This document shows, piece after piece, positions 1,098 to 62,655 of a DNA stretch of 64,000 nt. The stretch is from a virus, in IMG/VR virus record IMGVR_UViG_3300037119_005106, positions 16,500 through 80,499 of that record; one strand, written 5' to 3'. The position numbers were made by a program, and so were the translations under genes. Position 1 is the stretch's first letter. Each line of letters starts with the position of its first letter. The notes beneath the pieces are model-generated. The model had not been told where the DNA came from, ran no database searches, and saw only the letters and a list, made by a program, of their open reading frames with translations.

Positions 1098-1099
1098 GA

Positions 1100-1824: not shown

Positions 1825-4800
1825 TTATTTATAAGATTGTCTAAAATAGTTTATAATGGAAAACAGTTTAATTTTAGTATTTGATACTGAATTTATCTCT
1901 AATTCAAAAGAACACCATTCCCCTCTTAAATCATCATAATCATCTGGATTCTTAGCAGGGAAGGTATGAAGTCCTTCTCTGATTTTATACCAGTGGTGCG
2001 TTCCGGGAACAACTCTTGTTTGCCCTAACGAAGTTATGAAAGTAGTCTTTAATAAAGGATAATTTGTACTTAAAATAACTCCAAGACCTTTATTGATTTT
2101 TGTTTCAAAAAAATCTGGAGCTGAAATAACTTTTAATTTTAAGTTTTTCTGAGATTCAAATAACTCCAATTCATTACCACTATTCAATTCTCCTAGTTTC
2201 TGAGAGGATTCATAAGGAGCAATTACTTTGTTTTGAAACATAAAATACAAATCATTATTGTATTCTATTTTACCATTAAAAACTTCCAACAACTCATTGT
2301 ATGAAACAACAAAGTTAATATCATTTTTGGTTCTAAAACGTATATTGGTTTCTTTAAATTCATCATCATAATATCCTTCAGCAGAAACAACATCATTGTC
2401 TTTAAACATTCTCAATATTTCTAAAGCCAAAAAATTATCAACCAATAAAGGTTTTACTATTTTAACGATTTCTTTTTTCAAATCATCATAAAACACAAAT
2501 CCAAAAGGACTTTCAATTATAGCCCTTCTAAAAGACGTTCCGTAATCGCTAAGTACTTCATGTCCACTTATTGATTTTCCATCGCCTTGAGCAATCTGAA
2601 TAGCCGAACCACCCTTATCTGGAGTTATAAACGATCTTTCATCTATAAGTATTTTAGAAGTTTGCAATCCTTGAACAGCATAGATTTCATCTTTGTATTT
2701 TATGATGTTTAAAACAGAACCTTTGTTCTTATCCAATTCATAAAACTCATTTGTAGAAAACTTAGACCAAGCATCAATACTATCTCCATTCAACTTAGTA
2801 TTGGACACAGCAATCACATTATTTAGAATAGGCTCATCTTTAAAATCATAAGGAACAGGAATAGATTTTCTTAAATCATTTTCTTGAAGATATCCAGAAT
2901 TATAAAGTTCTTCATATTTAAAATCAATACTACTACTGAATAAATAGAATTCTTCTGAATTGGCTAATCTTGGCTCGATAGTACTTTCTAATACAACACT
3001 ATAACACCAAGCGTTGTATTTATTGTATTGATATCTTCTTTCATCTTCATTACCACCATGACCAGGAAAGTTATCCCAATGCATACCAATTGAAACAGGA
3101 GTTTGAGAACCTCTATAAGAACTTTTGTTTCTTAGATAAAGACTGCAATAACTATCTCCTTCAACATAAAATATTTGAGAAACAACTAATTCTTTAGTAA
3201 CTGGAATAACATCACTCAAAGGAATGTATTCATTTGAAGCATAAGCAAATTCTGTTCGACCACCATAAATAGAATCTTGGATATTTCTTTTTAGATTAGA
3301 AACAATATAGGAATCACGGCCATATAAAGAATCTTCATTTCTATATCCCCAATCACCAAAATTAACTCTACTTTTTATAAGATATTGCCTTTGAGAAATA
3401 TTAGTTTCGTTGAAGAAATTGAACTTTGTTTTTATAAAAACACTTTTTCTTCCACCAGCAATATTATTTACTCTAAAAATTGTTTGCTCTCTATTATTTC
3501 CACTTCTTGCAGAACCACAATAAAACCATCCTGGACAACCTAAAGTAAACGCATGATTTGCATAATCAAAAGTATCATTGAATTTATATCCAGACAATAT
3601 TTGTCCTTCTCCTATTTCAGAAGCTTTATCAATTTCATAAACATTACCAGAACTTGGTGTATTTTGGAAACTAGTATAAGATCTTCTTCTTAAAAGATTT
3701 GAAAAAACACTAACATTTACATAAAAAGGTCTTGTTTTGGAATCTCCAGCCAATAAGTTAGATGGTATTTTTTGAGAAAATTTTGGACCGCCAAAAGGAA
3801 CAGGCCCATTAAAATTAGAGCCACCATCAGAATAATAAGCCATACAACCTGGATTGTCACGATCATATCCACATGTTGCTTCGTTATAACCACCAAGAAT
3901 ATTATATCTATCATGATCGGTAGATATTGATTCAATGTATTCTAACTGACATGAACTAGCTAACTTTGAAGATATTTTATTGTGAACAAAATCAGGACTA
4001 TCAAAGTAAAAAGATTTTCTATTAGTAATTACAAGTCCAGAATTATTACTTGCATTATTCATATTAGGATCGGTATCAAAATTTAATATACCTCTATGGT
4101 CATAAACTGGACCTCCATTACTAGGCAACGCCCATTTGTCTACCATTTCAGGTTCAAAACCTAAGTTTTCATCAGGACCACCCAAATTTCCAAAATTAAC
4201 TATTCTTTCTAATGGACCAGAAATACCTTGCGCTAAAATCGTTCTATTGTTTTCATTACGCTCAACATATACGATTTGATAAGAATCTATTTCTTTGGAG
4301 AACTCACAATTAATACGAACATCAAATTGAAGTTCTATCTTTTCAGCATACATTTCATTACCTACAACACTCCAATTTTTATAGATATCAGAATTTAAAA
4401 TAATATTACCTGTTTCATCAAGTTCCCTTTTTACTTGACCGATATCAGGTATTTTCAAATCTCCAAGAATGATAGTAAACAATCTATTTCCATTCTTATA
4501 ACACTGAATTCCTAATCGATATATCTCCCCTTTCATTACACACTTACGAAGAGAAGGTTCTTTGATTTGTAAAGGTTTTGAACCACTTACCATCCAATCT
4601 GTATTTTTTGAAAGAACATTCTCTTTAACACTATGCATAGTAACTTTCACACCATTACCATTATACCATCCATTAGATACACCACCGTAAACTAAAGAAG
4701 CGTTTTTTGCCGCATCAGTTGTCGGCCAAGGAAAACTTCTTTTCTCAGTATCATTTTCTAAATCAATAATAACTTGATTGGTTGAAAAGGTCAAAATGTA

Positions 4801-6525: not shown

Positions 6526-6541
6526 AGCTATATATTTTCAA

Positions 6542-6549
6542 CAAATTTA
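6542..6549 (-). promoter_or_regulatory. Candidate -7 box (TAAATTTG) for the 1566-aa tail gene
   Basis: On the minus strand the sequence TAAATTTG fits the Bacteroidota TAnnTTTG -7 element and lies 17 bases before the ATG at 6525. No TTG -33 element at good spacing was seen. A terminator hairpin directly upstream supports a new transcription unit here. Confidence 0.4.
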
Positions 6550-6558
6550 AACAAAAAA

Positions 6559-6581
6559 AACACACCGTTTAAAAGTGTGTT
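6559..6581 (-). terminator. Rho-independent terminator
   Basis: AACACAC and GTGTGTT form a 7-bp stem; read on the minus strand it is followed by a run of eight T. It ends the 80-aa gene (stop at 6580) and separates it from the large tail gene. Confidence 0.75.
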
Positions 6582-6822
6582 ATAATTGTGTTTTAATAAG
6601 ATAGTAAGCCATTAATCTGTCAAAGTGAGGTTTAGCTATTAAAAGTCTTGCTCGGTTGTTAGCGTGTGTAGGTGGATCTACTTTGGGATATCTATCCACT
6701 ACCGCTATATGGCTTTTCAAAAATAGTGCTTCATCAATTATCGTATCATGCCTTGCCACTTTTACAGGTTGGTCAGACAATGTTAAATTCAATAAAGCTT
6801 CTTTTAGTTGTGGCCAAGTCAT
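6580..6822 (-). CDS. Hypothetical protein, 80 aa
   Basis: Small basic protein with no recognised family. It has no signal peptide or membrane segment. It is flanked by a candidate promoter (6840-6847) and a terminator overlapping its stop codon, so it may be transcribed alone, after the lysis cassette. Its conserved-looking core contains alternating hydrophobic strands and a C-terminal helix. Confidence 0.55.
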   Translation of the reverse strand: MTWPQLKEALLNLTLSDQPVKVARHDTIIDEALFLKSHIAVVDRYPKVDPPTHANNRARLLIAKPHFDRLMAYYLIKTQL

Positions 6823-6839
6823 ATAGAAATTGTTTACTA

Positions 6840-6847
6840 CAAATCTA
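6840..6847 (-). promoter_or_regulatory. Candidate -7 box (TAGATTTG)
   Basis: On the minus strand TAGATTTG matches TAnnTTTG and lies 18 bases upstream of the ATG at 6822. No convincing -33 element was found. Confidence 0.4.
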
Positions 6848-6860
6848 CAATATTTTTTGA

Positions 6861-7535
6861 TTATTTAACTATTAGAAATCCAGTTGCTATAATGGCTGCT
6901 GCAGCCACACCTTGCCAAACTGTTTTCTTTGTCTTTTCTTTCCTGACTGCCTTTTCTGTATTCTTTATAATATCCTTCTGCTTATTACTTATGCTATCGT
7001 ATTCAGAAACTACTTTTCCAAAATTGCTTATAATGGTATCTTTTACAACTCCTTTCTGCTCTTCTATATGGAGCTCGTCTTTTAATAATGAGTTTTCAGA
7101 AACACAACCATCGTATTGTACAATCTCTATAATATTCTTTTTTGCAACATCATCAGATAGCGTAGTTCCGTATTGAGTGATTGTAATAGGTAATTTGTAG
7201 CGCTCTTGATAGAATTTTGCTATTTGCTTAGTATTTAGTCCTATTACTTTTTCAACCTCTCTATGAGTCTTATTTTCAACTTCTACTATTTTAACCTTTA
7301 CCTTTTGCTTTATCTTATTCAAAGAATCTAATTTTACCAATAAATTCTCGTTCTTATTCAGTAAAGAAGAAACCCGATGCTCTCCATCAACAACTTCTTT
7401 CTTGAGTAATTTATTAGTGAGCTCTAATTCTTTTCTACCATTACAACTTCCAATAAGCAACAAGGAAAGAAGAAAGATTATAATATATGGCACAATTCTA
7501 CTCCAATCAATTTTGTATATATTAAACTGTTCCAT
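6861..7535 (-). CDS. Spanin-like lysis protein
   Basis: 224 residues. An N-terminal hydrophobic segment (about 11-30) ends in LLIGSC, which could act as a membrane anchor or a lipobox-like site. A long Lys/Glu-rich coiled coil follows (about 35-195), then a second hydrophobic segment at the extreme C-terminus (about 207-222). Together these suggest a unimolecular or Rz-like spanin that bridges the inner and outer membranes in the last step of lysis. It lies one base after the amidase stop and next to the holin, which supports a lysis role. No sequence family was recognised, so the call rests on architecture and context. Confidence 0.6.
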   Translation of the reverse strand: MEQFNIYKIDWSRIVPYIIIFLLSLLLIGSCNGRKELELTNKLLKKEVVDGEHRVSSLLNKNENLLVKLDSLNKIKQKVKVKIVEVENKTHREVEKVIGLNTKQIAKFYQERYKLPITITQYGTTLSDDVAKKNIIEIVQYDGCVSENSLLKDELHIEEQKGVVKDTIISNFGKVVSEYDSISNKQKDIIKNTEKAVRKEKTKKTVWQGVAAAAIIATGFLIVK

Positions 7536-7536
7536 A

Positions 7537-8085
7537 TTAAATCATGTTTTCGTAACGTTGAATAATCTCTGCATGTGCTATAGCCAATTTATGCTTATTG
7601 GAATGATAGAGTTTCAAATCGTTTGCATTGGAGATAAAACAAAGTTCTTGTAGTGCAACAATACCTAATTCTCTCATCAATCCTAAACGCCCTCTATGGC
7701 TTTCTGATTCGGCTTTAACACCACGATTCTTGATACCAAGAATTGAAGAGGTTGTATCAGCCAACTCTTTACCAAAAGCTTTGTCTAATCTGTCAGCATC
7801 ATCCCCAACTAATGAAGTTGTTCCGGTTGCTGTTGGTGAATCCGCAGCATCAAAATGATATTCTATTACTACCGAACCACTACCAGTTTTAATACGTTCC
7901 AGATACGTTCCAAGACGCTCGTCATCTTTATCCTGAATTACTTTAACACCTCTTCTAAGAAGGTCTGTTATTACCAAATCACGAAACTCTACTGTTAGGT
8001 CTGCTTCATGATATCCATTTCCAATTGCTCCTGGATCTGGTTTAATTCCTTTTGGGTTATGCCCCGCACTAGCAAATACTGTCAT
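7537..8085 (-). CDS. N-acetylmuramoyl-L-alanine amidase (endolysin)
   Basis: 182 residues, the usual length of an Amidase_3 catalytic domain without extra binding modules. Candidate zinc and catalytic residues are in the expected order: His9 (SAGHNP), Glu27 (YHEADL), His77 (IEYHFDA) and Glu147 (ALQELCF). The family cleaves the bond between N-acetylmuramic acid and L-alanine in peptidoglycan. There is no signal peptide, so it needs the neighbouring holin for release. It lies between holin and spanin genes in one operon with 1-5 base gaps. Confidence 0.9.
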   Translation of the reverse strand: MTVFASAGHNPKGIKPDPGAIGNGYHEADLTVEFRDLVITDLLRRGVKVIQDKDDERLGTYLERIKTGSGSVVIEYHFDAADSPTATGTTSLVGDDADRLDKAFGKELADTTSSILGIKNRGVKAESESHRGRLGLMRELGIVALQELCFISNANDLKLYHSNKHKLAIAHAEIIQRYENMI

Positions 8086-8090
8086 AATTA

Positions 8091-8777
8091 TTATTTTATT
8101 GGTTCTTGTTCTTTTTCTTCTACTTCTTCATCAAATCCATCATCTTTCTCTTTCTTTAAAAAAGCAGCTAGTCTTGGTTCAAACATACTTTCTACTATGG
8201 GAAAGATGGGTGGTTTTTTACCATAAACATATTCTATATTTCTACCAATGGATTTAAAATCATAATACCAGAAAAAAGCTATTGGCGCTTTAACAACTAC
8301 TCCTGATGCAAAGCCCATAAGAACAGCAATAGAACTATCGTCTTTTTGATACTCCATTATGTGATTGGCGCAGAATAAATAGAAGATAAGCGTTAAGCAT
8401 TTGAAGAAGGTAAATAATAGTTTCTTTGAATTAAATTGATATCCTCTGTATAGCCGAATAAACCTTGCTCTATTTGGATCATCTGATTCTAATCGCTTTG
8501 CTTTTCTGTAATAAGTATGTGATTTTTTAATCGACCTCTGGACTCCAAATACAGCATCAATGAGAACAGTTCCTATAACAATCAATAGAATAAAATTAGA
8601 TACTCCAAAATACTCTCGTTCATAAAAAGTAGACAAACACTGATGAATAGTAGCTAGACTAACTGTTTTAAAATACAAATCAAAATCATTGGCCGACACA
8701 AGTATATTCACCTTTTTTATATAAAGATGAATTGGTTTAAAATATGTCGTAAAGCAAGTGTACATAAATAACGTCAT
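8091..8777 (-). CDS. Phage holin family protein
   Basis: 228 residues with about three hydrophobic segments (roughly 60-80, 125-145, 150-170). The motif LIDAVFGVQRSIK in the first segment matches the conserved Asp-x2-x-Gly pattern of the phage_holin_4 family. The C-terminal tail is strongly acidic (last ~25 residues), as in many holins. It would form membrane lesions that let the amidase reach the wall. It is the first gene of the lysis cassette. The first ~40 residues are atypical, and a later start is possible. Confidence 0.7.
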   Translation of the reverse strand: MTLFMYTCFTTYFKPIHLYIKKVNILVSANDFDLYFKTVSLATIHQCLSTFYEREYFGVSNFILLIVIGTVLIDAVFGVQRSIKKSHTYYRKAKRLESDDPNRARFIRLYRGYQFNSKKLLFTFFKCLTLIFYLFCANHIMEYQKDDSSIAVLMGFASGVVVKAPIAFFWYYDFKSIGRNIEYVYGKKPPIFPIVESMFEPRLAAFLKKEKDDGFDEEVEEKEQEPIK

Positions 8778-8849
8778 TAGATACTATTATTTTTCTGATT
8801 ATTAATTGGTTTAAAGTTAGGTATTATTTTTTAATATTTAATTAAACAG

Positions 8850-9680
8850 TTATTTCCAATTCCATTCTACAAACCTGACAAGAGGTGAATTTGCCACAGT
8901 ATATAGTTTTTTACCATCATTTCTAAACCACAACCCTAAAATTGCACCAAACTGTGATCTGTTTTCTGTTCTAAAAAGAGTTAGTGTTGACACATCCCAA
9001 GGAGTGGAGGCTTTGTACTGTTTTATTACTTGTATAGCACTGGGTAAATAAAAATTAATACCGTCAGGTGAAATCCTAATATCTTGAAAAGTTGTACTGT
9101 CTGCGGATAAATCTTTAGATGTTATTAATGTTTTCGTAGAAACGTCCCATGCCGTACTTAGAGAGTAACTGTACATAGTGGTGGCGGTCATAATGAATAG
9201 CAATGTTCCATTACTATTAAACTCTATTCCTCTACCATTTGCAGGAATACTAGTTGTTTCCGCTGTTGTTTTAACAGAAACATCCCATGCAGTAGTTAAA
9301 TTAAAAGCTTGTATTAAATTCGATGTAATATTTACTAGATATAATTTTGTACCGTCATTTTTTAAAGTTAATCCTTGCTGACTTCCTGTTTGACTTTTGT
9401 TTATATAATTAAGTGTACGGGTTGATATATCCCAAGGTATGCTTAAATCTCCTTGTGATAGCTCATTGTTGTCCGCACAAGTGTAAACTCTAGTGCCGTC
9501 AGGTTTAAAAAAAATACCTGATTTCCTTTGTGATTCTGTACCAGCTGTAATTTCAAGACCAGCTTTAACAACTAAATTAATAAGATTCCAAGTAGCTTTA
9601 AACAGATATGGGTTTACTAGATTCATTTGTCTATATTTTTTGTAAACATTATAGATCGGATTAATTAATTTCTCTCCCAT
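8850..9680 (-). CDS. Beta-propeller receptor-binding-type protein
   Basis: 276 residues. After a short N-terminal helix (about 1-40), four or five repeats of ~45 residues each carry an (A/P)WD(V/I)S motif followed by an F/L-x-x-(D/N)GTKLY-like strand. This is typical of beta-propellers found in phage and bacterial surface proteins. In this position (end of the tail-fibre cluster, before lysis genes) it is a good candidate for host-receptor or polysaccharide binding. It overlaps the previous gene by 16 bases. Confidence 0.65.
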   Translation of the reverse strand: MGEKLINPIYNVYKKYRQMNLVNPYLFKATWNLINLVVKAGLEITAGTESQRKSGIFFKPDGTRVYTCADNNELSQGDLSIPWDISTRTLNYINKSQTGSQQGLTLKNDGTKLYLVNITSNLIQAFNLTTAWDVSVKTTAETTSIPANGRGIEFNSNGTLLFIMTATTMYSYSLSTAWDVSTKTLITSKDLSADSTTFQDIRISPDGINFYLPSAIQVIKQYKASTPWDVSTLTLFRTENRSQFGAILGLWFRNDGKKLYTVANSPLVRFVEWNWK

Positions 9681-10216
9681 CCTTCATCAATATTAGGTTC
9701 TTGACCATTTGTAACTTGAAGGACTTTTATGTTTCTTGTGTCAAGATTTTTAGCAAGCTTTACATTGATAGATGATAATTTATTTAAATGCGCTTGCTCT
9801 TCATCTGTTAAAGCAATATTTGAAGCTTCTTTACGAACACTATTAATCATAAACAACGTTTCGTCTTTATGTACGGATTCACTCCAAATAGAAGCATTTG
9901 CATCTTTTTCAGCATTTTCAATTGCCATTACAATCTCCGCATTAGGTCGTTTGATTGGATTGTAGGTGATTCTATACTCTCTTAATCCTGGATAAGATGG
10001 ATGTTGTCCAAATTCTAGCAAATGCTCCAAGTCAGGAAGATTAGTTTGAAGAAGAAAAATTCTAGAATCATAATCTGGTTCAGGATAAGGAATGTTTTTT
10101 ACCAACCATTCATAATCGGGATCAATTCCCTCAACCGGAAGCATATCTTCGCGAGGATATAAATCGTGTTTAATAATTTCTTTTGTGCTTTTACGAACTA
10201 AAACTGATGGTACCAT
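9665..10216 (-). CDS. Tail fibre-associated protein, 183 aa
   Basis: No named family recognised. The segment PDYEWLVKNIPYPEPDY resembles a stretch of the adjacent 690-aa fibre protein (EWKWIIANIPYSNP), hinting at a shared attachment or repeat unit. The rest is mixed alpha/beta with a helical C-terminal half. Its position between the fibre and beta-propeller genes suggests a tail-fibre connector or chaperone. It overlaps the beta-propeller gene by 16 bases. Confidence 0.5.
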   Translation of the reverse strand: MVPSVLVRKSTKEIIKHDLYPREDMLPVEGIDPDYEWLVKNIPYPEPDYDSRIFLLQTNLPDLEHLLEFGQHPSYPGLREYRITYNPIKRPNAEIVMAIENAEKDANASIWSESVHKDETLFMINSVRKEASNIALTDEEQAHLNKLSSINVKLAKNLDTRNIKVLQVTNGQEPNIDEGWERN

Positions 10217-10236
10217 ATTTGTTTTTTATTAATTAG

Positions 10237-12309
10237 TTAAACTTTTTTTCCTATGAATAATATTTTCAAACCTGCTCCAGCAACTCCACTACCTATTTGA
10301 GTTACACTTACTATAATCTCTGAATCATTTGCTAAATTAACATCAGAGATTACAGCCGGAACCGCTGCCGTAACACTTGTTTTCTCTGTAGCATCAATGC
10401 TTAGCAATGTACTAAATATTGACACACCATTTTCTTTTACATTAACAATTAAACTAGATACTGTTGGAGCTGTATTAAGACTTGTTCTTACCTCAGATAA
10501 AGTCATAGCAAATGGAACTCTAAATGTTATTACATCACCTACCATTAAAGGAGAAAACTCATCGCTACACGCATAAGCAATCTCTGTTTTTGAAAGAGGA
10601 TCGCTAGTTGATAAATTACCTGATGAATCGGCTACAACAACTCTACTGCCAGTTCCAGCAAGATTAGGAACATTAAGACTTCCGTCTTTATTTACTTTTA
10701 CTTTTATAGAAATAGTACCGTCAGAATTTCTAGTTGCAAAATTCATTGAAACAGCATTGGTATTGGTTCTTTCGTCAGGCGTATCAATATAAGCAACTTC
10801 AACACTATTGGAAGCGAACCAAGACAATCTTCTGCTTTTTGGTGATGCAGTTGTGCCATCACTATCAACCATTATTCCTAATACAGAACCAAGACTACGT
10901 ATTAAAAACTTAGACAAATTAAATATATTGGTACCAATAGAGATTCCGCCATATCTAAAAATATGGTTTGTTTTATTATTTCCCGCATCTACTTCCGGTC
11001 CAGCCAAAAGAAAATTTGATATTTCAGAAGTAATTACTTCAGGTTCATAAAGACTAGTAGAAGAATTATAAACCCAAGTTGAATTATTATTACCTATATA
11101 TAAATTTTGACTATCTAATCTTAATGAATCATCATTTACAGTAGGAGGATTATTTAAATCAAATATTGTTGCTGAAAGAGAGTTTGGATTTGTGAAATTG
11201 AAAAAAACATTTTTAGCATATGTTTTTGGTATCTTATCCAATTCTTCCTCTAGACCTTCTATATCTGAAATAGTATTTCTTAGAATACCAACGAAACATA
11301 AAAAATAACTATTCCAAGCCGTTTGTCTTGCTTTGAAATGAGCTATTTCTTTATACTTCATAACAAGATCTTTCCCTTCAGTAAAAGCAAATTTATACGC
11401 TCCACCAGAAAAAGGAGAACTATAATCATATATTGTAAAAGGAGCACCAGTATAGTTGAAAACATAAAAATCTTTCCATTCATACATTTCATCCAAACCT
11501 TCGTCAATAATATTTACCCCTCCTAAACTTGTTGCCCCTCCAGCTATTTGGATTAAAGATTTTTCGGTAGGAATATCAACAAAAGGAACATGTCCATAAC
11601 TAACAGGAAAATCAAAAATAATTCCACCTTTTGAAGTTTTAGTTATATAATTGTCACCAATTATAGGCATAATAGGTTCACTAATACCGGTATCTGTTAC
11701 TTTTACCCAAGTAGCATAAATTCCACCATTAGGAAGAACAGGAGCAAATGGTTCTCCTAAAGATTCTTCGCCAGATATCATATCAAAACTATTGCTTACA
11801 TTAGGAACAAAATAAACAAGTCTTGAGTAATCGGTTGATGACAAAGGAATAGTTATAGTTTCTTCAACAGGATTGCTATAAGGTATATTTGCTATTATCC
11901 ATTTCCATTCCGGATTAAAAACAATATCGTTACCCGTAACATAAGCTCCAGTAGCTTCTGTTATTTCATTGATAGTACTAAATAAATCCTTAGCTTCAGT
12001 AAGCTTGTAAAAATTATATTCTTTACCAGAGTAATTAACATCATCAACAATCCATCGAAGAGGATAAGTAAAATTCTGAGCAACAAGACCTACCTCTGCA
12101 ACAGTTCCTACTCTCCATTCCCATTTAGTATCTTCTTCTCTACAATGAACAATAAGTTTGTCATAATATGTAAAAGCTAGATTGTCATTAAGCCCTAAAC
12201 TAGACAAAATACTTTCCGAAGGACTATACTTTATGTAATCTAATGGTATTTGTGCCGGAACAGATAAGCCGGTTTGTATATCAGTTTTATTAGGATTGCT
12301 GCTAGACAT
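10237..12309 (-). CDS. Tail fibre / tailspike-like protein, 690 aa
   Basis: Beta-rich 690-residue protein. The N-terminal third likely attaches to the particle. The middle contains repeated strand-turn units. Near residues 545-565 there is a GSRVVVADSSGNL motif typical of the shaft-to-head transition in phage fibres. The C-terminal ~120 residues look like a jelly-roll or carbohydrate-binding domain. It probably contacts the host surface. A small 84-aa gene precedes it and the 183-aa protein follows. Host-range variability would be expected in the C-terminus. Confidence 0.65.
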   Translation of the reverse strand: MSSSNPNKTDIQTGLSVPAQIPLDYIKYSPSESILSSLGLNDNLAFTYYDKLIVHCREEDTKWEWRVGTVAEVGLVAQNFTYPLRWIVDDVNYSGKEYNFYKLTEAKDLFSTINEITEATGAYVTGNDIVFNPEWKWIIANIPYSNPVEETITIPLSSTDYSRLVYFVPNVSNSFDMISGEESLGEPFAPVLPNGGIYATWVKVTDTGISEPIMPIIGDNYITKTSKGGIIFDFPVSYGHVPFVDIPTEKSLIQIAGGATSLGGVNIIDEGLDEMYEWKDFYVFNYTGAPFTIYDYSSPFSGGAYKFAFTEGKDLVMKYKEIAHFKARQTAWNSYFLCFVGILRNTISDIEGLEEELDKIPKTYAKNVFFNFTNPNSLSATIFDLNNPPTVNDDSLRLDSQNLYIGNNNSTWVYNSSTSLYEPEVITSEISNFLLAGPEVDAGNNKTNHIFRYGGISIGTNIFNLSKFLIRSLGSVLGIMVDSDGTTASPKSRRLSWFASNSVEVAYIDTPDERTNTNAVSMNFATRNSDGTISIKVKVNKDGSLNVPNLAGTGSRVVVADSSGNLSTSDPLSKTEIAYACSDEFSPLMVGDVITFRVPFAMTLSEVRTSLNTAPTVSSLIVNVKENGVSIFSTLLSIDATEKTSVTAAVPAVISDVNLANDSEIIVSVTQIGSGVAGAGLKILFIGKKV

Positions 12310-12320
12310 ATCAGTTTTTG

Positions 12321-12575
12321 TTATTGATTAAATAAGAATAATGCTGCTGCTTTGTTTAAATAATCTTTAAGGTCTGTAGAGCCCAGTTTATCAGATATTT
12401 CAGAATACAAAATAAAAAGAGTAGGCTCACCATGTATTTTCACATGAAGAACATTACCTCTTAATAAAACATTTGTCAATTGATTTATCATATAAAATTC
12501 TGGAGTTCCTGTACCATCAACAACTTCAATCATTGTTGCTTTCCCTACTTTGGTAATATTTATTACTCTACTCAT
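12321..12575 (-). CDS. Hypothetical structural-cluster protein, 84 aa
   Basis: Small protein of beta strands followed by one helix, no recognised family. Its start overlaps the stop of the 322-aa gene (ATGA-type overlap of 4 bases), showing translational coupling within the tail cluster. Possibly a small virion or assembly protein. Confidence 0.55.
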   Translation of the reverse strand: MSRVINITKVGKATMIEVVDGTGTPEFYMINQLTNVLLRGNVLHVKIHGEPTLFILYSEISDKLGSTDLKDYLNKAAALFLFNQ

Positions 12576-13540
12576 GGCGTTGGTGTTATTGGAATTATTA
12601 ATATAAGTTGATTCAATAATGGATTGACATTTAATGGATCCCCATCAACATCATTAAGCGTAATCGTAATACTATTTTCAACAACCGTATCTGTATCTTT
12701 TACTATTCGAACATAATAAACAGTTTCTCCATTATCATCAAGAAAAAAGTCAATTACAAAAAGACCAGAAGTATTAATTATTCCTTCCGGATAATCTCTT
12801 TCGGTTATACCAACAATATCCAAAGGATTAATTCCTATTGTTGGATAAAGAGTAGTATCTATTCCTATTTGATATGAAGCACCTACAATACTGTTTTGTA
12901 TTTTAAATGAATAGTTAGTTGTTTCTACCAAAGTTGTTGGATCCTGTTCCGAACTTGGTCCTGAAACTAATACCAATTCAGCACCATTCAAAGAAGAAGT
13001 ATTCACTGTAATCGTATTGGTTTGTCCATGATTTCCAAGTATGCTTTCAGTATCCCAAGTGAATACAGCATAATCATCCATGTTGCCAGGATTATCAGCA
13101 ATGAATTTCAAATTATTCACAAGGTCATAATAGAATATGGTTTGGCCAACAAAAACAATATTACCATTTAAAGTCCAAGAACCTCTGCCTTCAATATTCG
13201 TTATTGTAATTCTATCATAATGCGCTTCCGGAGCAACAATATCACTAAAGAAAAAAGAATCCGTAAAATGAATATCTTGAACAATTGTTAATATCGGCGG
13301 AACTCCTGTTTTATTGGTAGCAAAAGAAACCCGAACAGTTCCGGTATTTACAGAAACCTTACCATCTTTTGTTACTTTATATTTGAAAGAATCAAATGGT
13401 TCTCCTAGGAACGGAGTTGCATTATGAAGAACCGTTGCCGACTCTAAAGCGATATCATATTGCGTTCCAACAACAACCTCAATGCCTGATACGGTCATTA
13501 AGGTTCTAATTGGTTTTTCTGTTATCTCAAAAGTTGTCAT
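12572..13540 (-). CDS. Beta-sandwich tail-associated protein, 322 aa
   Basis: Almost entirely beta, rich in Thr, Val and Asn, with at least two segments that look like Ig-like or jelly-roll domains (about 10-115 and 190-310). There is no signal peptide. It is in the fibre cluster, two bases after the connector gene, so a head- or tail-appendage role is inferred. No specific family could be named. Confidence 0.55.
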   Translation of the reverse strand: MTTFEITEKPIRTLMTVSGIEVVVGTQYDIALESATVLHNATPFLGEPFDSFKYKVTKDGKVSVNTGTVRVSFATNKTGVPPILTIVQDIHFTDSFFFSDIVAPEAHYDRITITNIEGRGSWTLNGNIVFVGQTIFYYDLVNNLKFIADNPGNMDDYAVFTWDTESILGNHGQTNTITVNTSSLNGAELVLVSGPSSEQDPTTLVETTNYSFKIQNSIVGASYQIGIDTTLYPTIGINPLDIVGITERDYPEGIINTSGLFVIDFFLDDNGETVYYVRIVKDTDTVVENSITITLNDVDGDPLNVNPLLNQLILIIPITPTP

Positions 13541-26478: not shown

Positions 26479-28026
26479 TTATTGGTTGTGTGTTTCCACG
26501 ATTAGACATTCGGTTGACAGAACAGTAAGAGCAATACTTACCGCATTAGTAAGTCCATTGATAGAAACACTTATTGGATCCACAATACCTGATTCATAAA
26601 GATTCTCAAACTTTCTTGTTTTGGCATTATATCCTTTTTCGAAAGAAATAGCATTTCCAATTTTAAGTATTTCATCATCATTATGAAATGAGTTCTTTAA
26701 AATTTCAGCAAAAGGTCGACAAATAGATGAATAAAAAATAGTTTGAAAAGGATCAGGATTTCTTATATCTTTTGAAAGCAATACCAAACTCTGACCACCA
26801 CCTATAATCACATTGTCTTTCAATGCAGCTTTACAAGCTTTATAAGCATCTTCCACACGATGCTTCTTTTCCTTGATTTCAATATCACTAGCACCACCAA
26901 CATAGAAAGTAGTAATACCATTTTTCATCTTGTCAATACGCTTGAGCATCGATGTAGAATGATAAGCTGATTTTTCTTCTTTAGAAGCCATTTCCAATAA
27001 GAACAGATATTCATCCAATAACTCTTTTCGAGTTCCTTCAACTTCTCCAAAAACGGTATAACCTTGTTTTACGACAACATTATTGGCTTCTCCAAACTCA
27101 CTATCATATTCATTGAAATTCTGAATAATATCAGCTCCAGTGTATTGAGATAGGTCATTCATGTAATTCATGTACTCATCATTTCTGAATTGGTTTTTAA
27201 TCAAACAGATTTTAATTCCTATACGGTCCATATTGTTGAATTCAACAATACTTTCCACGTCCTTTGAGAAATCTTTGGCAAAAATGATTATAGGCAATGG
27301 ATTTACTTTTGAACCAGTGTCTATCAATCGAATGATTTCTTTTTTATCGGTAAACTCATTGTCATACAAAATAACTTTACATTTATCCGCTTCAAAGTAT
27401 CCTGTTATCGGATTGTTGGCATACTTTCTGTCACAATACCCCATTTCAACAACATATCCTTTGATGATATCCACATAACTTTTACCAGTCATGGTTTCAA
27501 GGATATTGATATAGCCATCTTCTTTGGCGTTGTTAAAAGCTTTTTGGAATAGGTTAGCAATTTCCAAATCATTGTTAGCTGAAGTAAGCGCTACTTTACC
27601 AATTTCTGCTAAAGGAATTTTTACCGAATTCTTTCTAATAGCATTAACGATATATTGCAATTCAGCATTAATAGTTTCTCTGAAAAGATGTTCATTAAAT
27701 CCTGATTTAGAACGAGCTTCCATTCCTAATGCAATTAAGGTGCGACACACAACTGTAGCGCTTGTGGTACCATCACCCGAATCCTCATCGGTTTTACTAG
27801 CCACCTTTTTTACCATCTGAATACCTACGTTAATCACTGGATCGGGATGATTCATTTCCATAGCAACAGTAACACCATCTTTTGTAGCAAAAGGATCTTC
27901 TCCGGCATTCGCTATAATTACAGTTTTACCACTTGGACCAAGTGTGCTTTTAACAGCGTTGTAAAGAAGGTCTACCCCTTCCATCAACTTGTCCTGACTA
28001 TCGTTTAAGTATATCCTTTTTGACAT
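26479..28026 (-). CDS. groEL: Phage-encoded GroEL-type chaperonin
   Basis: 515 residues, slightly shorter than bacterial GroEL. Chaperonin signatures are intact: TLGPSGKTV at 28-36, DGVTVA at 50-55, GDGTTSATV at 84-92 with the ATPase Asp, an IKEKKHRVEDA segment before the second equatorial half, and VIIGGGQSL. There is no Gly-Gly-Met tail. The apical domain is strongly diverged. The family folds proteins in an ATP-driven double ring capped by GroES. The preceding gene encodes a GroES-like domain and overlaps it by 29 bases, so phage capsid folding by a dedicated chaperonin pair is a sensible inference. Confidence 0.9.
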   Translation of the reverse strand: MSKRIYLNDSQDKLMEGVDLLYNAVKSTLGPSGKTVIIANAGEDPFATKDGVTVAMEMNHPDPVINVGIQMVKKVASKTDEDSGDGTTSATVVCRTLIALGMEARSKSGFNEHLFRETINAELQYIVNAIRKNSVKIPLAEIGKVALTSANNDLEIANLFQKAFNNAKEDGYINILETMTGKSYVDIIKGYVVEMGYCDRKYANNPITGYFEADKCKVILYDNEFTDKKEIIRLIDTGSKVNPLPIIIFAKDFSKDVESIVEFNNMDRIGIKICLIKNQFRNDEYMNYMNDLSQYTGADIIQNFNEYDSEFGEANNVVVKQGYTVFGEVEGTRKELLDEYLFLLEMASKEEKSAYHSTSMLKRIDKMKNGITTFYVGGASDIEIKEKKHRVEDAYKACKAALKDNVIIGGGQSLVLLSKDIRNPDPFQTIFYSSICRPFAEILKNSFHNDDEILKIGNAISFEKGYNAKTRKFENLYESGIVDPISVSINGLTNAVSIALTVLSTECLIVETHNQ

Positions 28027-54746: not shown

Positions 54747-55889
54747 ATGAAATTTTTCGAAACATTAGTACAAACAGGAATTAAAGATGTAGTATTTCAA
54801 GTAAAACAAGATGACAAAGGTTTATTAACCGTCTTTATTACTCCTAAATCAATAGCCAATGATTCTGCTTTAAAAGAGTTAAAACCAATCATTCTATCAG
54901 GAACAGTTGAAGATATGGATGAAGGATTCTTTGAAGCAATATCTCCAGCTCTTGAGCAAGCACAAAAACTATTCTCTAATGTGGTGGACTTCGAAGCACA
55001 ATTAGCTGAAATCGCTAAAGCTACTGCCGATAAGAAGAAAACCAAAGCACCTGTAAAAGCTGAGAAGTCAGAAGATGATGGAGAGGAAAAGGATGAAGAA
55101 GAAACTGCTGCAAAAGAGAAAGTTGTAAAAGTAAACAACGAGAAAGTATTCAAAGACTTTATCACTTCTATCAAAGCGAAGCCAGAACCATTAACCAACC
55201 ACACAGAAAAAATAGAAGAACTGTATGCTTTGCTTACGGATGTTGAGAAAGAGAAAGCACCTATCAAGAAAATAAGAACGGAGTTTGATGCAGCGGTTAA
55301 GAAAGCAAATGATATTGCTAAAGCTAAAGCACAATTTGCACCAAAAGCTGAAACAGAATCAGTTTCAGTAGGAGAAGAAACAGTTATCATAGATATTCCA
55401 GCTACTCCAATTCCAGAGGAAGAAATCCCAAACGTGGAAAATGTTGGAGCCGTAGAGGAAGTTGTCGTTGAGGAAGAAGAAGTTGCTGAATTGGTTACTG
55501 CAATGGTAGAAGATTTTCCAATAGAAGAAGTTGAGGAAGTAGTTGAAGAAACATCATTCACTTCTAAAGAAGATTTCTTGAAAAAGAATAATCCAGTTGA
55601 GGATATACCAGTAGTTGCTGAAACACTTCCATCGATGCCTTCTGCTCCAACACCACCAGCACCATCAATTCCTGTTCCGGCACCAGCTCCAGTATTCGAA
55701 GAAGTGGATGTATTGGTTATGATTAATCAAGACTTCTCTAAAGAAGATTTCCTTGCTGCTGGATGGGATGAGGATAAATTGGTTCAAGCCGGTCACGCCA
55801 AATGGGAAAAACAAATGGTTGAGGTAGCCAAACCAAAACTATCTTATGCTTTTCCAAAACCTTTTGATGCGGAAGAAACAGAAGCATAA
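54747..55889 (+). CDS. PRTRC system protein E
   Basis: 380 residues. The first ~85 match PRTRC E: MKFFETLVQTGIKDVVF, LLTVFITPKS, LSGTVEDMDEGFF and a helical end. A long acidic, low-complexity middle follows (Glu/Val/Pro-rich, ~90-290), then a GW motif at ~330-350 (FLAAGWDEDKLVQAG) also found in the protein at 46578. E is the first gene of the PRTRC cassette on plasmids and integrative elements, but its function is unknown. A terminator follows. Confidence 0.8.
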   Translation: MKFFETLVQTGIKDVVFQVKQDDKGLLTVFITPKSIANDSALKELKPIILSGTVEDMDEGFFEAISPALEQAQKLFSNVVDFEAQLAEIAKATADKKKTKAPVKAEKSEDDGEEKDEEETAAKEKVVKVNNEKVFKDFITSIKAKPEPLTNHTEKIEELYALLTDVEKEKAPIKKIRTEFDAAVKKANDIAKAKAQFAPKAETESVSVGEETVIIDIPATPIPEEEIPNVENVGAVEEVVVEEEEVAELVTAMVEDFPIEEVEEVVEETSFTSKEDFLKKNNPVEDIPVVAETLPSMPSAPTPPAPSIPVPAPAPVFEEVDVLVMINQDFSKEDFLAAGWDEDKLVQAGHAKWEKQMVEVAKPKLSYAFPKPFDAEETEA

Positions 55890-55901
55890 TAAATAATCCT
55901 T

Positions 55902-55926
55902 GAACCTCTCTTAATCGGGAGGTTCT
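55902..55926 (+). terminator. Terminator after PRTRC E
   Basis: GAACCTCTC and GGGAGGTTC form a 9-bp stem (one G-U) with loop TTAATC, then a seven-T run. It lies between PRTRC E and C, so expression of C and later genes may need read-through or a separate start. Confidence 0.8.
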
Positions 55927-55956
55927 TTTTTTCATTAATCAATAATATCAAGAATC

Positions 55957-56178
55957 ATGGCTTTAGCAAAACAAGAATTAAAAAGAAAGTTCACAGTAAA
56001 AGTAGGAAGCAATTCAGTAACGCTTGAGGATCCAAATCCTAATTTCTCAGCGCAAGAAGTAATGGAAATGTATTCCACACAATATCCACAATTAGTCAAT
56101 GCAAACATAGAAAGCAAAGGAATTGTGGAAGATTGTATTTTGTTCAATTTCGCAACCGTTGCCGGAACTAAAGGATAG
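55957..56178 (+). CDS. PRTRC system protein C, ubiquitin-like
   Basis: 73 residues. FTVKVGSNSVTLED and FSAQEVMEMYSTQYPQL (beta-grasp pattern: strand, strand, helix), VNANIES and a final strand FNFATVAG match PRTRC C / Prok_Ub, a ubiquitin-like beta-grasp protein. The protein ends in GTKG*, i.e. a C-terminal Gly, which fits activation by an E1-like enzyme. The E1-like and E2-like genes are 1.4-3 kb downstream. Conjugation itself is inference. Confidence 0.85.
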   Translation: MALAKQELKRKFTVKVGSNSVTLEDPNPNFSAQEVMEMYSTQYPQLVNANIESKGIVEDCILFNFATVAGTKG

Positions 56179-56182
56179 TATC

Positions 56183-56362
56183 ATGAACGCTATTCAATTT
56201 TTAAAATTTCTAAAAGAGCAGCCTAAACCAAAGGCTGCTACTTTGGATACTAATTTTGGAGGATTATGGGACAAGATAAAAAGACAGCAAGAAACCGAAT
56301 ATCAAAACGGAACACAACAAGTTCAAATGCTGTTAAGCAAAGAAAAAATATTTTTCAGTTAG
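56183..56362 (+). CDS. Hypothetical small protein, 59 aa
   Basis: Start at 56183 (MNAIQFLKF), four bases after PRTRC C, but it overlaps the next gene by 97 bases in another frame. Helical, Lys/Gln-rich. It may be real, with the next protein starting at a non-ATG codon further on; I cannot decide. Confidence 0.35.
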   Translation: MNAIQFLKFLKEQPKPKAATLDTNFGGLWDKIKRQQETEYQNGTQQVQMLLSKEKIFFS

Positions 56363-57330
56363 TTAAGGGAGATTCCATATACAAAGCTCTTCCAGAAATT
56401 CACAGTCAAATAAGAGATAAATTCATTTTTGCTGAAAACCTAATCAGCTTCCTAAAGGAAAAGCACAACGAAGAATTAGAAAGTCTTTCCTTCAATCCCA
56501 TCAAAGACGATATCAATACATTAATCAATAGCCTTATAAATACAATCATTAGGCTTGGCTACATTATTGTATTTGATAACTACAACCAAGACAATACAGA
56601 TCTAAAAATTCTGTATAGTATTGGAGATATGGAATTCATGTGGTATCTGATAGAATATAAAAAGATAAACAACATTGAATCCGAAGAAATACGCATTGGC
56701 TTTACTTATTTACTAGACAGAATCGCTACACAAACAGAAGCCTATCCTGATGTTTTCCAATATGAATACTTTCAAGAAGATGATAACTGTTTTCAAGGAG
56801 AATTCGAAATGCTATTTGATGAAGAAAGATTCGCTGACGAAGAAGATAATATAGACGAAGGAATGCTTCAAGAAATGCAAGAAGAAAAGAAAGAAGAACT
56901 TGCTAGGCTTCGCAAATGGAAAGACTTATACACACTTTATTTCTATCAGTCTTATGATCGATTCCTAGAATACGTTCCCAAAAATAAAGACGAAGAAGAA
57001 TTCAAAGAATTTATCATAAAAGGAATGGCTATTGATTACAGTATTCCTAACAAATTTATGGATGGAGAAGATATTAGTTCAGATGGCGGAATTAGCTTCT
57101 CTCAAAACACAATGGTAAGTTTTGATTTCTCACAAGGAGTAGAAGAACAATGGTTCGAAATGATGGAAGAATATGGATATAACGGTTCTTCACAACCTGT
57201 AGGATGGTATGAGGTTTCGAAAGAAGGAGTAGTTAATAAAACCAGCCAACAAGACATTACCGACCTAAAAGCAATCTACCAATACATTTTAGATTTATAC
57301 GAAAACCATTTAAACAAATTGGAAAAATGA
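56266..57330 (+). CDS. PRTRC F-position protein, 354 aa
   Basis: Lies between C and B, where the PRTRC cassettes on plasmids carry F. N-terminal ~35 residues are Lys/Arg-rich (NRISKRN), the rest helical with an acidic middle (Glu/Asp-rich, ~175-205) and an aromatic C-terminal half. I do not see enough motif to call F confidently. It overlaps B by 4 bases, so it is translationally coupled to it. Confidence 0.55.
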   Translation: MGQDKKTARNRISKRNTTSSNAVKQRKNIFQLVKGDSIYKALPEIHSQIRDKFIFAENLISFLKEKHNEELESLSFNPIKDDINTLINSLINTIIRLGYIIVFDNYNQDNTDLKILYSIGDMEFMWYLIEYKKINNIESEEIRIGFTYLLDRIATQTEAYPDVFQYEYFQEDDNCFQGEFEMLFDEERFADEEDNIDEGMLQEMQEEKKEELARLRKWKDLYTLYFYQSYDRFLEYVPKNKDEEEFKEFIIKGMAIDYSIPNKFMDGEDISSDGGISFSQNTMVSFDFSQGVEEQWFEMMEEYGYNGSSQPVGWYEVSKEGVVNKTSQQDITDLKAIYQYILDLYENHLNKLEK

Positions 57331-57995
57331 GTTATATAACCTCTTCAAACGAACAGCATTTAAAATTTGTGCTATGCGCTTATGATAACAAAATGATTTA
57401 TCATGACTATAATCATAAGACGGATGAACTATCAGCGGGAAAGATGCTGACTGTTGATGCAGCGAAAACATTGTTTAAGTTCTCTAATGAGATTAACTCC
57501 ATGAAGCAATATGAATTCAATGGAATTATCCCAAGCAATGTTTTAAGATTTAAGACAGATGAAAAATATATCATCTGGGAAACGGAACCTGGGATAAAAG
57601 AAATTTTATATCATGAAAGCCTTCCTGTAAAATCAGGGAAGTATTGGGTACCAAGAATGATTTGGAAACTAAACGCCAATTCTCTTTCAGTTCATGCTAT
57701 TATGAAGGAAGTAAAATCAGAAAAGGACAAGCTATACAATGCTCCATTCTTCAATGTAAGCAAAGGCGGTAGTGTGTGTATGGGTAATACCAAGTTCACA
57801 GACCAAGGCTACAATTATGAAAAAATCATGAAGAAAGTTGAGGAAGGATTTTGGGGTTCAGTTTTTACACATAGCAATAATGATGCATTACTACATTTCA
57901 ACTTTGTTGAATGGTGTAACAATCCAAAATTAAATCAAATGCAATGCAATGATTTATTGGTAGATTCTGAAAAAACAATTAAAAGTATATTGTAA
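57327..57995 (+). CDS. PRTRC system protein B (Prok-E2_D, E2-like)
   Basis: 222 residues. The C-terminal third carries the PRTRC B motifs: LYNAPFFNVS, then SVCMGNTKF with Cys151 in the position of an E2 active-site cysteine, FWGSVFTHSN (176-184). The family is classified as a prokaryotic E2-like fold (E2_D). In a ubiquitin-like pathway it would accept the Ub-like protein from the E1 and pass it on. Gene order C - F? - B - 92 aa - ThiF matches plasmid cassettes. Confidence 0.85.
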   Translation: MSYITSSNEQHLKFVLCAYDNKMIYHDYNHKTDELSAGKMLTVDAAKTLFKFSNEINSMKQYEFNGIIPSNVLRFKTDEKYIIWETEPGIKEILYHESLPVKSGKYWVPRMIWKLNANSLSVHAIMKEVKSEKDKLYNAPFFNVSKGGSVCMGNTKFTDQGYNYEKIMKKVEEGFWGSVFTHSNNDALLHFNFVEWCNNPKLNQMQCNDLLVDSEKTIKSIL

Positions 57996-58273
57996 TGAGC
58001 GCAATTAAAATTTATAACCAAGCAGAAAGAAACGGAATTTATTTTTATACTGACTGTACTAGCATTACTATTACACAGCACGAAAAATTAATGGAAAATT
58101 CCACTAAAGCAAACGGAAAAAAAATCAGACAATTGATTAAAAATAATTGTTCCGATTTATATGAAAGTTTAGGTTTAGAATTTCCTAATCCTTACGAATA
58201 TAAAAGCCGAAAAAAAGAAGGATTATTAATTTACGTACATTCATCAATTGAATATTTTTTCAAAATAAATTAA
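57995..58273 (+). CDS. Small protein between PRTRC B and ThiF, 92 aa
   Basis: The canonical place of PRTRC A (JAB peptidase). This 92-aa protein has no JAB motif (no His-x-His...Asp). It has a Lys-rich helical half and aromatic C-terminal end. It may be a phage-specific replacement or an unrelated gene. It shares a base with B. Confidence 0.5.
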   Translation: MSAIKIYNQAERNGIYFYTDCTSITITQHEKLMENSTKANGKKIRQLIKNNCSDLYESLGLEFPNPYEYKSRKKEGLLIYVHSSIEYFFKIN

Positions 58274-58275
58274 TC

Positions 58276-59061
58276 ATGAAAAAAGAAACCATTCATTACG
58301 CTCCTGAATACTTCATAAGTCCGCAACATCCAGTTTCAATAGCGCTTATAGGGGCTGGAGGTACAGGCTCATTAGTTGCTCCAAGATTGGCAAGACTAGA
58401 TTATGTCTTAAAAGAATTAGGATTGCCCGGATTATATGTAATCGTTTATGATGGTGACACCGTAGAACAAAACAATGTAGGCAGACAGAATTTCAGCAAG
58501 AATGATATCGGCGATTATAAAGCAGCCAATATTGTTCAGAAGATAAATATGGCTTACGGGTTGGACTGGGAATGCAAGAATGAATATGTTGGAGATAAGA
58601 TTCCTGATGCCAATATTGTTATTTCTTGTGTTGACAATGTAGAGCTTCGAAACAAAATCCATAAAAAAAGAGAAGAGAAATCAATCATAAACAGAATTGA
58701 TTATACTACTCCTTTCTATTGGTTGGATTGCGGTAATGGAAAGGATTTTGGTCAAGTAATCTTATCAACAATATTCGATATCCACCAACCTGAGAAATCA
58801 GTATTCAAATGCCAAAAAAGACTTCCATCAGTCATTGATATCTATGGAGAACTTTCTCAATATGATACCAAAGAATCCCAAGGTATTGAGGGATGCTCTA
58901 TGGCTGAGAGTTTATCCAAGCAAGATGTATTCATTAATGATGAGATTGCTATACAGGCTGTAAAAATAGTGCAACAGTTGGTTCGTAATTATAGAATATC
59001 ATATCATGGCGCTGTAGTCAATCAGGCAACTAGTAAAGTAATCGGAATACCTATTCCATAA
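58276..59061 (+). CDS. PRTRC ThiF-type E1-like adenylating enzyme
   Basis: 261 residues. ALIGAGGTGSLV (26-32 glycine loop), VYDGDTVEQNNVGRQNFS (Asp59, Asn66, Arg70, Gln71) and a Lys82 fit the E1/ThiF nucleotide and Mg binding set; CVDNVELR (Asp120) is the strand 4 Asp. GCSMAESLSKQDVFIN with Cys207 matches PRTRC ThiF (CSLAEALxKQDLFIN). It should adenylate the C-terminal Gly of PRTRC C. No zinc CxxC pairs of other E1s are present. It is the best recognised member of the cassette. Confidence 0.9.
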   Translation: MKKETIHYAPEYFISPQHPVSIALIGAGGTGSLVAPRLARLDYVLKELGLPGLYVIVYDGDTVEQNNVGRQNFSKNDIGDYKAANIVQKINMAYGLDWECKNEYVGDKIPDANIVISCVDNVELRNKIHKKREEKSIINRIDYTTPFYWLDCGNGKDFGQVILSTIFDIHQPEKSVFKCQKRLPSVIDIYGELSQYDTKESQGIEGCSMAESLSKQDVFINDEIAIQAVKIVQQLVRNYRISYHGAVVNQATSKVIGIPIP

Positions 59062-60616: not shown

Positions 60617-60755
60617 AACAATTATTAAGAATTTTGATTTTAATTCTTTCATGATAGGATTTATAATTGGAGCAATTTTAATATGTAAATATATGATTTG
60701 GACTATAGGTCTATATTATAAAAAAAAAATAAATGATACTAAAAGAAACAATTGA
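60603..60755 (+). CDS. Membrane mini-protein, 50 aa
   Basis: ATG to TGA frame of 50 codons, not reaching the usual length cut-off. One hydrophobic helix (FMIGFIIGAILICKYMIW) followed by Lys-rich tail. It overlaps the gene before by 14 and the primase by 23 bases. Confidence 0.4.
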   Translation: MKTIETIIKNFDFNSFMIGFIIGAILICKYMIWTIGLYYKKKINDTKRNN

Positions 60756-62655
60756 CAAAGTATTTGCTCTCGACATTGTGGATGTTATCAAGGACTATGT
60801 AAAACTTAAAAAAACGGGAGCAAACTACAAAGGACTCTCCTGCTTTACCGACGAACGAACGCCATCATTTACCGTATCACCAGCTAAAGGAATATTCAAA
60901 TGTTTCAGTAGTGGGAAAGGTGGCAACTTGGTAAAGTTCATCATGGAAAAGGAGCTGATGAATTATCCTGAAGCTTTGAAGTTTTTATGTAAGCGCTTTA
61001 ACATCGAGTGCTTGGAATCGGAAGAAACCAACGAAGAGAAAATACTTTCACAGAAAAAGGAATCCATGCACATCATCAATACTGCTGCATTGAATTTCTA
61101 TAAACAGAATCTCAACTACTTCCAAGAGGTTTTGAACTATGTCTATGGAGAGCGACAGATTTCCGCAGAAATGGTAAACAAGTTTGAGATAGGATTTGCA
61201 CCAAGCACCATTTCGGGATTAACCAACCATTTAATCAATGCTGGTTACAATTGGCAATTAGCAGTTGAAAACTCTGTACTGGGTTACATTCCTGAGAAGA
61301 ACAATCTCTATGACAGGTTTCGGAACAGGGTAATGTTTCCAATAAAAAATATATCTGGAAATGTTATTGGCTTTGGTGGTCGCTCATTGGCTCCCAATGA
61401 AAAGAACGCGAAGTATCTGAACAGTTCCGACAGTATTCTTTACAATAAGAGTGAAGCACTCTTTGGGATATTTGAAAGCAAGAAAGCGATCATTGACAAA
61501 AACCAATGTTTATTATCCGAAGGATATTTGGATGTGGTTATGTTCCATCAAAAAGGAGTAGAGAATATTGTAGCATCATCCGGAACAGCACTTACCATAG
61601 AACACGTAAAACTGATTAAAAGGTTTACCAAAAATGTGGTCGTGGTTTTTGATAATGACAAAGCCGGAATACGAGCAACGCTAAAAGGAATTGATATTCT
61701 TTTGGCCGAGGAAATGTATGTGAAAGTTTTAATCCTACCACAAGGACAAGATCCGGATGATTTTGCTAAAGCAAGGAATAAGGAAGAAATAGAAAAATAC
61801 ATTCTAGATTATTCCCAAGACTTTGTTTTATTCAAACTCAATCATTTGCTAATGGAAGCTAATGGCGATTTGAATTTAGCATCTAAAGCAGTAGAAGATG
61901 TATTGGAGAGTATTGCCAAAATGCCAGACGTAGTACGTCGGGAAGTCTATTTGAAAGAGTGCGCTGCCATATCCAAAATTAGTATTGATATGCTCCGCAT
62001 CACGCTGAGAAAACATATAGCAGATGAAATAGCTTTCAGTCCATCGGTGCCACAAAACTTCTACGAACAGTTTATGTCCAACAGGAACTACATCCAAACC
62101 CAATGCGAGAAGAAAATACTCCAATATGTGTTGGCTTATGGTAGTTTGGAATTGACTTTCAAAGAAGTGCTATTGGACAAGGCTGGTACCGCTACGCATC
62201 AGTATTTCAAAGAAAGACCATTTGATGCCAGGAGAACGGTTTTGGATAAAGTGAAATATGAATTGGAAACCGATGGAATCCATTTTCTGAACATCACTTA
62301 CTCTCACATATACGAGAGAGCCAAATTAGCCGATTTAAGGAACTTTAATTCTTTAGAGCATCATTTGGACACCGAAACCTATTTGTTAGCTATTGAGTTA
62401 AGGAATGAGGAACTGACAGGGAACAGGAATACTTTTTCCTATGGCGCTTCGATAGGAGTTCAGGAACAAAATATAATTCCTAATCTTCATGAATACTTAC
62501 AAGCTTCCATAAAAGAGAACTTGCTTTTCTATAAAGTGATGTATATCGAATGGCTGATTGAGGAAGAGAGCAAAAAGAACATACCCAACAAGGAGAATGT
62601 GAAAGATTATATTGAACTGATCATTCGCATTAAAAAAGAACTTAATACTATTTAA
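60733..62655 (+). CDS. dnaG: DnaG-type primase with degenerate zinc motif
   Basis: 640 residues. The N-terminal zinc domain is recognisable (TPSFTVSP) but ligands are largely lost: canonical Cys-His-Cys-Cys becomes Ser36, Thr39, Cys57, Ser60, as I recall for flavobacterial DnaG. The central TOPRIM domain has LLSEGYLDVVMFHQ (Glu) and VVFDNDKAG (Asp-x-Asp). The C-terminal ~180 residues are helical, likely the helicase-interaction part. It makes RNA primers for phage replication. No DnaB-type helicase is seen in the window. Confidence 0.9.
   Translation: MILKETIDKVFALDIVDVIKDYVKLKKTGANYKGLSCFTDERTPSFTVSPAKGIFKCFSSGKGGNLVKFIMEKELMNYPEALKFLCKRFNIECLESEETNEEKILSQKKESMHIINTAALNFYKQNLNYFQEVLNYVYGERQISAEMVNKFEIGFAPSTISGLTNHLINAGYNWQLAVENSVLGYIPEKNNLYDRFRNRVMFPIKNISGNVIGFGGRSLAPNEKNAKYLNSSDSILYNKSEALFGIFESKKAIIDKNQCLLSEGYLDVVMFHQKGVENIVASSGTALTIEHVKLIKRFTKNVVVVFDNDKAGIRATLKGIDILLAEEMYVKVLILPQGQDPDDFAKARNKEEIEKYILDYSQDFVLFKLNHLLMEANGDLNLASKAVEDVLESIAKMPDVVRREVYLKECAAISKISIDMLRITLRKHIADEIAFSPSVPQNFYEQFMSNRNYIQTQCEKKILQYVLAYGSLELTFKEVLLDKAGTATHQYFKERPFDARRTVLDKVKYELETDGIHFLNITYSHIYERAKLADLRNFNSLEHHLDTETYLLAIELRNEELTGNRNTFSYGASIGVQEQNIIPNLHEYLQASIKENLLFYKVMYIEWLIEEESKKNIPNKENVKDYIELIIRIKKELNTI

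Follow-up and report, generated by a model that had tools for sequence, protein, structure and literature searches.

Gene content and layout of the cassette

Examination of the window, a stretch of 64,000 nucleotides corresponding to bases 16500-80499 of the 80,499 bp IMG/VR virus record IMGVR_UViG_3300037119_005106, revealed a cassette on the plus strand (54747-59061) coding for PRTRC proteins E and C, an F-position protein, PRTRC protein B, a 92-aa ORF and PRTRC ThiF (Table 1). A search with two HMM libraries (TIGR/NCBIfam models and Pfam), scored against the model cut-offs, placed E (47.3 bits against TIGR03741, cut-off 37.95), C (57.4 bits against TIGR03738, cut-off 45.95, and also above that of PF14454) and ThiF (215 bits against TIGR03736, cut-off 144.75) in their respective families. 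B exceeds the cut-off of Prok-E2_D, yet its match to TIGR03737 (1.6e-20, 73 bits) lies under the cut-off of 131. An earlier sequence-only reading had named E, a Ub-like C ending in Gly, an F-position protein, an E2-like B with Cys151 and a ThiF/E1-like enzyme with GAGGTGS, RQ and Cys207, in the order known from plasmids and integrative elements. The named families were confirmed by matches of E, C, B and ThiF to PRTRC, Prok_Ub or Prok-E2_D models, and the order E-C-F-B-(A)-ThiF on one strand is the same as in annotated plasmids; the F-position protein matched no F model, and the 92-aa ORF between B and ThiF had been missed.

Table 1. Features of the cassette and associated loci in the window
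Feature	Position	Strand	Evidence or remark
SSB-like protein, 455 aa	46578-47945	+	identity inferred from tail
PRTRC protein E, 380 aa	54747-55889	+	TIGR03741 1.6e-12, PF19556 1.7e-17, both over cut-off
Motif SKEDFLAAGWDEDKLVQAGHA, E residues 331-351	55737-55799	+	also present in the tail of the SSB-like protein of this phage
Hairpin resembling a terminator, with T7 after it, between E and C	55902-55925	+	-14.1 kcal/mol, z -2.5
PRTRC protein C, ubiquitin-like (Prok_Ub), 73 aa	55957-56178	+	TIGR03738 1.2e-15, PF14454 8.3e-18
F-position alpha-helical protein, 354 aa	56266-57330	+	no Pfam/NCBIfam match
PRTRC protein B, E2-like	57327-57995	+	Prok-E2_D PF14460 1.9e-22, over cut-off
92-aa ORF	57995-58273	+	no family match; occupies the place of A in plasmid cassettes
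PRTRC ThiF, E1-like	58276-59061	+	TIGR03736 8.8e-64; Cys207 codon 58894-58896
DnaG-type primase	60733-62655	+	PF08275 1.5e-34 and others; downstream of cassette

From E onwards the genes are closely packed: two gaps, of 67 and 87 bp, are followed by overlaps of 4 bp and 1 bp, and a last gap of 2 bp precedes ThiF. The hairpin between E and C could uncouple E from the remaining cassette genes; the region has three terminator-like sites where 3.8 would be expected. Protein A, a JAB peptidase, was not found in the cassette, nor was any Prok-JAB in the whole window record; a ParB profile built here found no match in the window, and the PRTRC D model gave no match anywhere, positive controls included. 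The cassette is of the PRTRC kind, and is a phage variant that lacks A and, so far as the tests allow, ParB and D as well. It has in common with the PRTRC systems of plasmids and integrative elements the E, C, B and ThiF families, the gene order and a helical protein between C and B, but differs from them in being phage-borne, in that A, ParB and D were not found, in an F-position protein that F models do not recognise, in an unextended C and in the extra 92-aa ORF.

The F-position protein belongs to the same family as its counterparts in Bacteroidota-type cassettes (2.1e-28 with a profile built here, which includes the query). Comparison with the proteobacterial F by hhalign gave a weak collinear profile-profile match (probability 42, E 2.7e-4), position and size being equal. 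Foldseek found no PDB fold match for its AlphaFold model (pLDDT 76) and returned only the viral protein A0A6J5L345 (3e-6), of undescribed function, so that assignment to a known fold was rejected. Family searches did not support a reading of the 92-aa ORF as a reduced form of A.

On its minus strand the window encodes terminase, portal and virion proteins; the genes for helicases, exonuclease and primase are on the opposite, plus strand. The carrier, a phage, is distantly related to crAss-like phages, its terminase showing 25-27% identity to those of crAss-like genomes (best E 9e-34). No integrase was found in it, and it is probably virulent. Around the cassette lie a Dda-like helicase, a 5'-3' exonuclease and the DnaG primase, in agreement with its earlier placement between repair nucleases and primase, in the replication half of a virulent-looking phage. 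GC content is 34.2% in the cassette and 34.1% in its surroundings. The phage also encodes a GroEL-type chaperonin (26479-28026, minus strand; phrog_5725, 2.9e-103). At 1067-12964 (minus strand) of L002, which have the same numbers in the virus record and lie outside the window, this crAss-related phage codes for a giant protein of 3,965 aa with zero Pfam matches.

Protein C and its putative conjugation enzymes

The C protein of the window ends ...VAGTKG-stop (Gly73 codon 56173-56175). Across the loci compared, C extends beyond ...GTKG in 28 of 29 A-positive loci and in none of 55 A-negative ones, where the terminal residue is Gly (53) or Ala (2); the associated p of 2e-21 is without phylogenetic correction, and the lineages are not independent. 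Contrasts nevertheless occur in more than one lineage: L119, L123, L131 and L136 are A-less within the F_prot type, and L088 (extended C) and Bacillus phage KLEB27-3 are A-positive. Because C is extended nearly always with A and never without it, A is likely the maturation peptidase of C, and the C of the window is likely made ready to use, with no C-terminal extension; a JAB peptidase would therefore not be needed by this phage. A is missing too from a Pelobacter plasmid and from nearly all Bacteroidota-type cassettes read, and is therefore no strict PRTRC requirement. In two loci (L069 7984-8199 and L136 7843-8058) C ends ...GTKA rather than ...GTKG, possibly an inactive or alternative terminal residue. 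The sequenced 217 kb Bacillus phage vB_BauM_KLEB27-3 (L008 673-1434) encodes a C made up of four Prok_Ub units in tandem, resembling polyubiquitin, and a short tail; its PRTRC A, B and ThiF genes lie near it.

In ThiF, the GxGGTG loop, D59/D61, N67, R70-Q71, K82, D120 and Cys207 are invariant in seven divergent relatives, which upholds the ATP-site motifs and the cysteine named in the sequence-only reading. Protein B carries Cys151 (codon 57777-57779), Asn143 and His182. Both C151 and N143 are kept in 50 of 50 aligned B proteins and H182 in 44 of 50, and Cys151 is invariant across a separate set of 57 diverse B proteins. The distance between Asn143 and Cys151 is 8 residues, in the context NVxxxGxVCLG; the HPN Asn and the catalytic Cys of E2 enzymes have the same spacing and a similar context. 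For this E2 group, Iyer et al. 2006 (PMC1779556) described a conserved His that follows the Cys. Foldseek matched the AlphaFold model of B (pLDDT 88.6) to no E2 structure, and the B profile matched no PDB sequence; B was thus not identified as an E2 by fold, and the term E2-like rests on its sequence.

These features make a protein-conjugation pathway a well-supported prediction, and we consider the pathway probably functional. ThiF would adenylate the C-terminal Gly of C and then take C onto Cys207; B would take C from ThiF onto Cys151, from which C would be passed to target proteins. E and the helical F-position protein may act as target-recruiting or scaffold partners. The closest PDB sequence relatives of ThiF are the Cap2 adenylation domain (best) and ubiquitin-type E1s, which favors conjugation over a sulfur-carrier or small-molecule chemistry in which ThiF and C would yield a thiocarboxylate or adenylated product, in the style of ThiS/MoaD or MccB, and not conjugates. 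Such a chemistry agrees with the ThiF/MoeB homology and with the presence of MccB among the distant PDB matches of ThiF, but the linked E2-like protein with its invariant Cys, the absence of a sulfurtransferase from the neighbour families scanned and the JAB partner that accompanies extended C in sister systems make it quite improbable.

Bil (bacterial ISG15-like) operons, a host defence with a deconjugating peptidase, contain a stand-alone Ubl plus E1 and E2; the window cassette differs in being phage-borne and in having no JAB. Ub-like conjugation is also common to the cassette and CBASS Cap2/Cap3 (PMC10097602, PMC11153139), but Cap2 conjugates the cGAS-like enzyme itself, whereas the window cassette has separate Ubl, E1 and E2 genes and no nucleotide cyclase. 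A phage-encoded Ub-like protein is likewise found in the Lambda/T1 TAPI-TAPK genes (Ub-like plus JAB/NlpC, PMC1779556), which are devoted to tail assembly and have no E1 or E2, in contrast to the E1-like and E2-like proteins and the replication context of the window cassette.

Distribution and inheritance of the cassette

A search with a ThiF alignment allowed us to find at least 205 IMG/VR stretches encoding a ThiF relative; 80 of them were read. With few exceptions, the stretches read carry the order E-C-F-B-(A)-ThiF. About 19 carriers are sequenced phages or have a terminase or portal gene: the window, G036, G055, G020, G030, G035, G001, G045, G052, G053, G054, G062, G002, G037, G063, G047 and G071, together with the sequenced Burkholderia phage BgVeeders33 and Bacillus phage KLEB27-3. 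Among the remaining carriers there may be plasmids or integrative elements classed as viral. The cassette recurs in many unrelated phages, and the window case is not unique.

In the ThiF tree the window falls together with phage L056, a Maribacter locus and an element of Flavobacterium sp. P3160 (L003/L138), and the ThiF proteins of the crAss-like relatives G020, G030 and G035 make up a clade of their own. In these three relatives the cassette is split, with C at a distance from B and ThiF, as is E in those where it was identified, and the recognisable parts are kept; in G035 no E was identified, and the stretch read ends at C. In 15 related phage records C and ThiF are found either together (6 records) or not at all (9 records), a perfect co-occurrence. 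L056 carries the cassette in the same syntenic place, with the same genes upstream and a terminase 45% identical; this synteny, together with a GC content equal to that of the surroundings, led us to reject a unique or very recent acquisition. In the close relative G007 the contig stops upstream of the primase, at a distance of about 3.5 kb. On a Tunicatimonas pelagia plasmid (L010, 4598-17259), a PRTRC cassette and UmuD/Y-family polymerase genes lie within about 13 kb, along with a further Ub-like operon composed of multiubiquitin, ThiF and DUF6527.

On the ThiF tree at least 8 label changes are needed to account for the verified phages, which indicates that the cassette has been exchanged repeatedly between phages, plasmids and ICEs. 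Exchange of this kind and the accessory distribution in related phages are typical of arms-race genes, and Ub-like conjugation is established in the CBASS and Bil conflict systems. They are consistent with a counter-defence or host takeover function, in which host proteins, from defence systems or others, would be inactivated by the attachment of C, the location among early genes reflecting early need. PADLOC models, however, cover none of B, C and F and match ThiF only through generic E1-E2 models (best 3e-6).

Replication context and possible role

The sliding clamp DnaN ranks first among the neighbour families of the cassette (17 loci out of 97 distinct ones); other replication neighbours are DnaB (11) and SSB (9), besides the topoisomerase and integrase of ICE-type loci. 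The dnaN gene directly adjoins the cassette in 11 loci, beside E in 10 and beside ThiF in one, and dnaB adjoins or lies near cassette parts in three crAss-like relatives. No dnaN was found in the window phage, and the cassette is missing at 9 of 10 other phage dnaN loci. DnaN is weakened as the conserved partner and is therefore a candidate target only in some of the other elements, where it would be the neighbouring clamp.

Protein E has an acidic, Pro/Val-rich linker and a C-terminal SSB-tail-like motif of 21 residues, the other location of which is the tail of the phage's SSB-like protein. When scored with a matrix built from SSB-like tails alone, the motif of E reached 29.6 bits, ranking first among the non-training proteins of a set of about 4,400 (runner-up 18.6 bits), and 300 shuffles of E gave a mean of -4.8 (sd 3.7, maximum 9.1) with the same matrix. 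The motif in E was seen in the window phage only. The SSB-like protein, for which no Pfam domain and no PDB match were found, carries a long tail rich in Pro/Gln, which contains two GW motifs of type YDxxxxxGWTDxxxIxxG and an acidic tip, DDLPFG; its relatives end DDDLPY, DLDEVEF and DDDMPF. SSB proteins end in such acidic tips. The common motif suggests that E and the SSB-like protein may bind the same partner.

Of the roles considered, action at the replication fork has the best support, with about an even chance of being correct. E would probably dock at the fork through the motif common to the SSB-like tail, and phage (or hijacked host) replication and repair proteins would therefore be the likely targets. 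The whole reading, of a complete Ubl pathway with a ready-mature C acting at the phage replication fork, we hold with middling confidence; passive clustering of early genes would also place the cassette among replication genes. An extension of it, proposed only tentatively, is a mobile-element counterpart of the eukaryotic ubiquitin/SUMO control of the fork, in which C would be placed on SSB partners, helicase or, in elements that encode it beside the cassette, DnaN, and favor the replication, repair or recombination of the element.

The sequence-only reading had left two options, an action during phage replication or against host proteins. The first gains from the module position, from the dnaN and dnaB adjacency elsewhere and from the SSB-tail motif in E; the second gained none. 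Replication genes are neighbours in phages, plasmids and ICEs alike and the E/SSB-like motif points to the fork, so that counter-defence or host takeover appears a possible but rather unlikely function. The occurrence of the cassette on plasmids, ICEs and phages could also reflect a defence against other mobile elements, in which competitors' proteins would be tagged to protect the infected cell or replicon by a logic similar to that of Bil, whose action on phage tails is summarised in PMC12135933. We give this proposal little credence, as exclusion would bring little gain to a phage without integrase, the cassette is located with replication genes, and B and C have no PADLOC match.

The operon type was predicted by Iyer et al. 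(2006; their row 6d, PMC1779556); no description of a phage PRTRC system was found in the open literature searched. PRTRC conjugation had been predicted by 2006, with no function or substrate found in the same literature, and phages offer a tractable, fast assay for PRTRC conjugates. If the targets are replication proteins, bacterial mobile elements would have a eukaryote-like, ubiquitin-type control of the replication fork; if they are host proteins, the cassette would be an unrecognised device of takeover or counter-defence.
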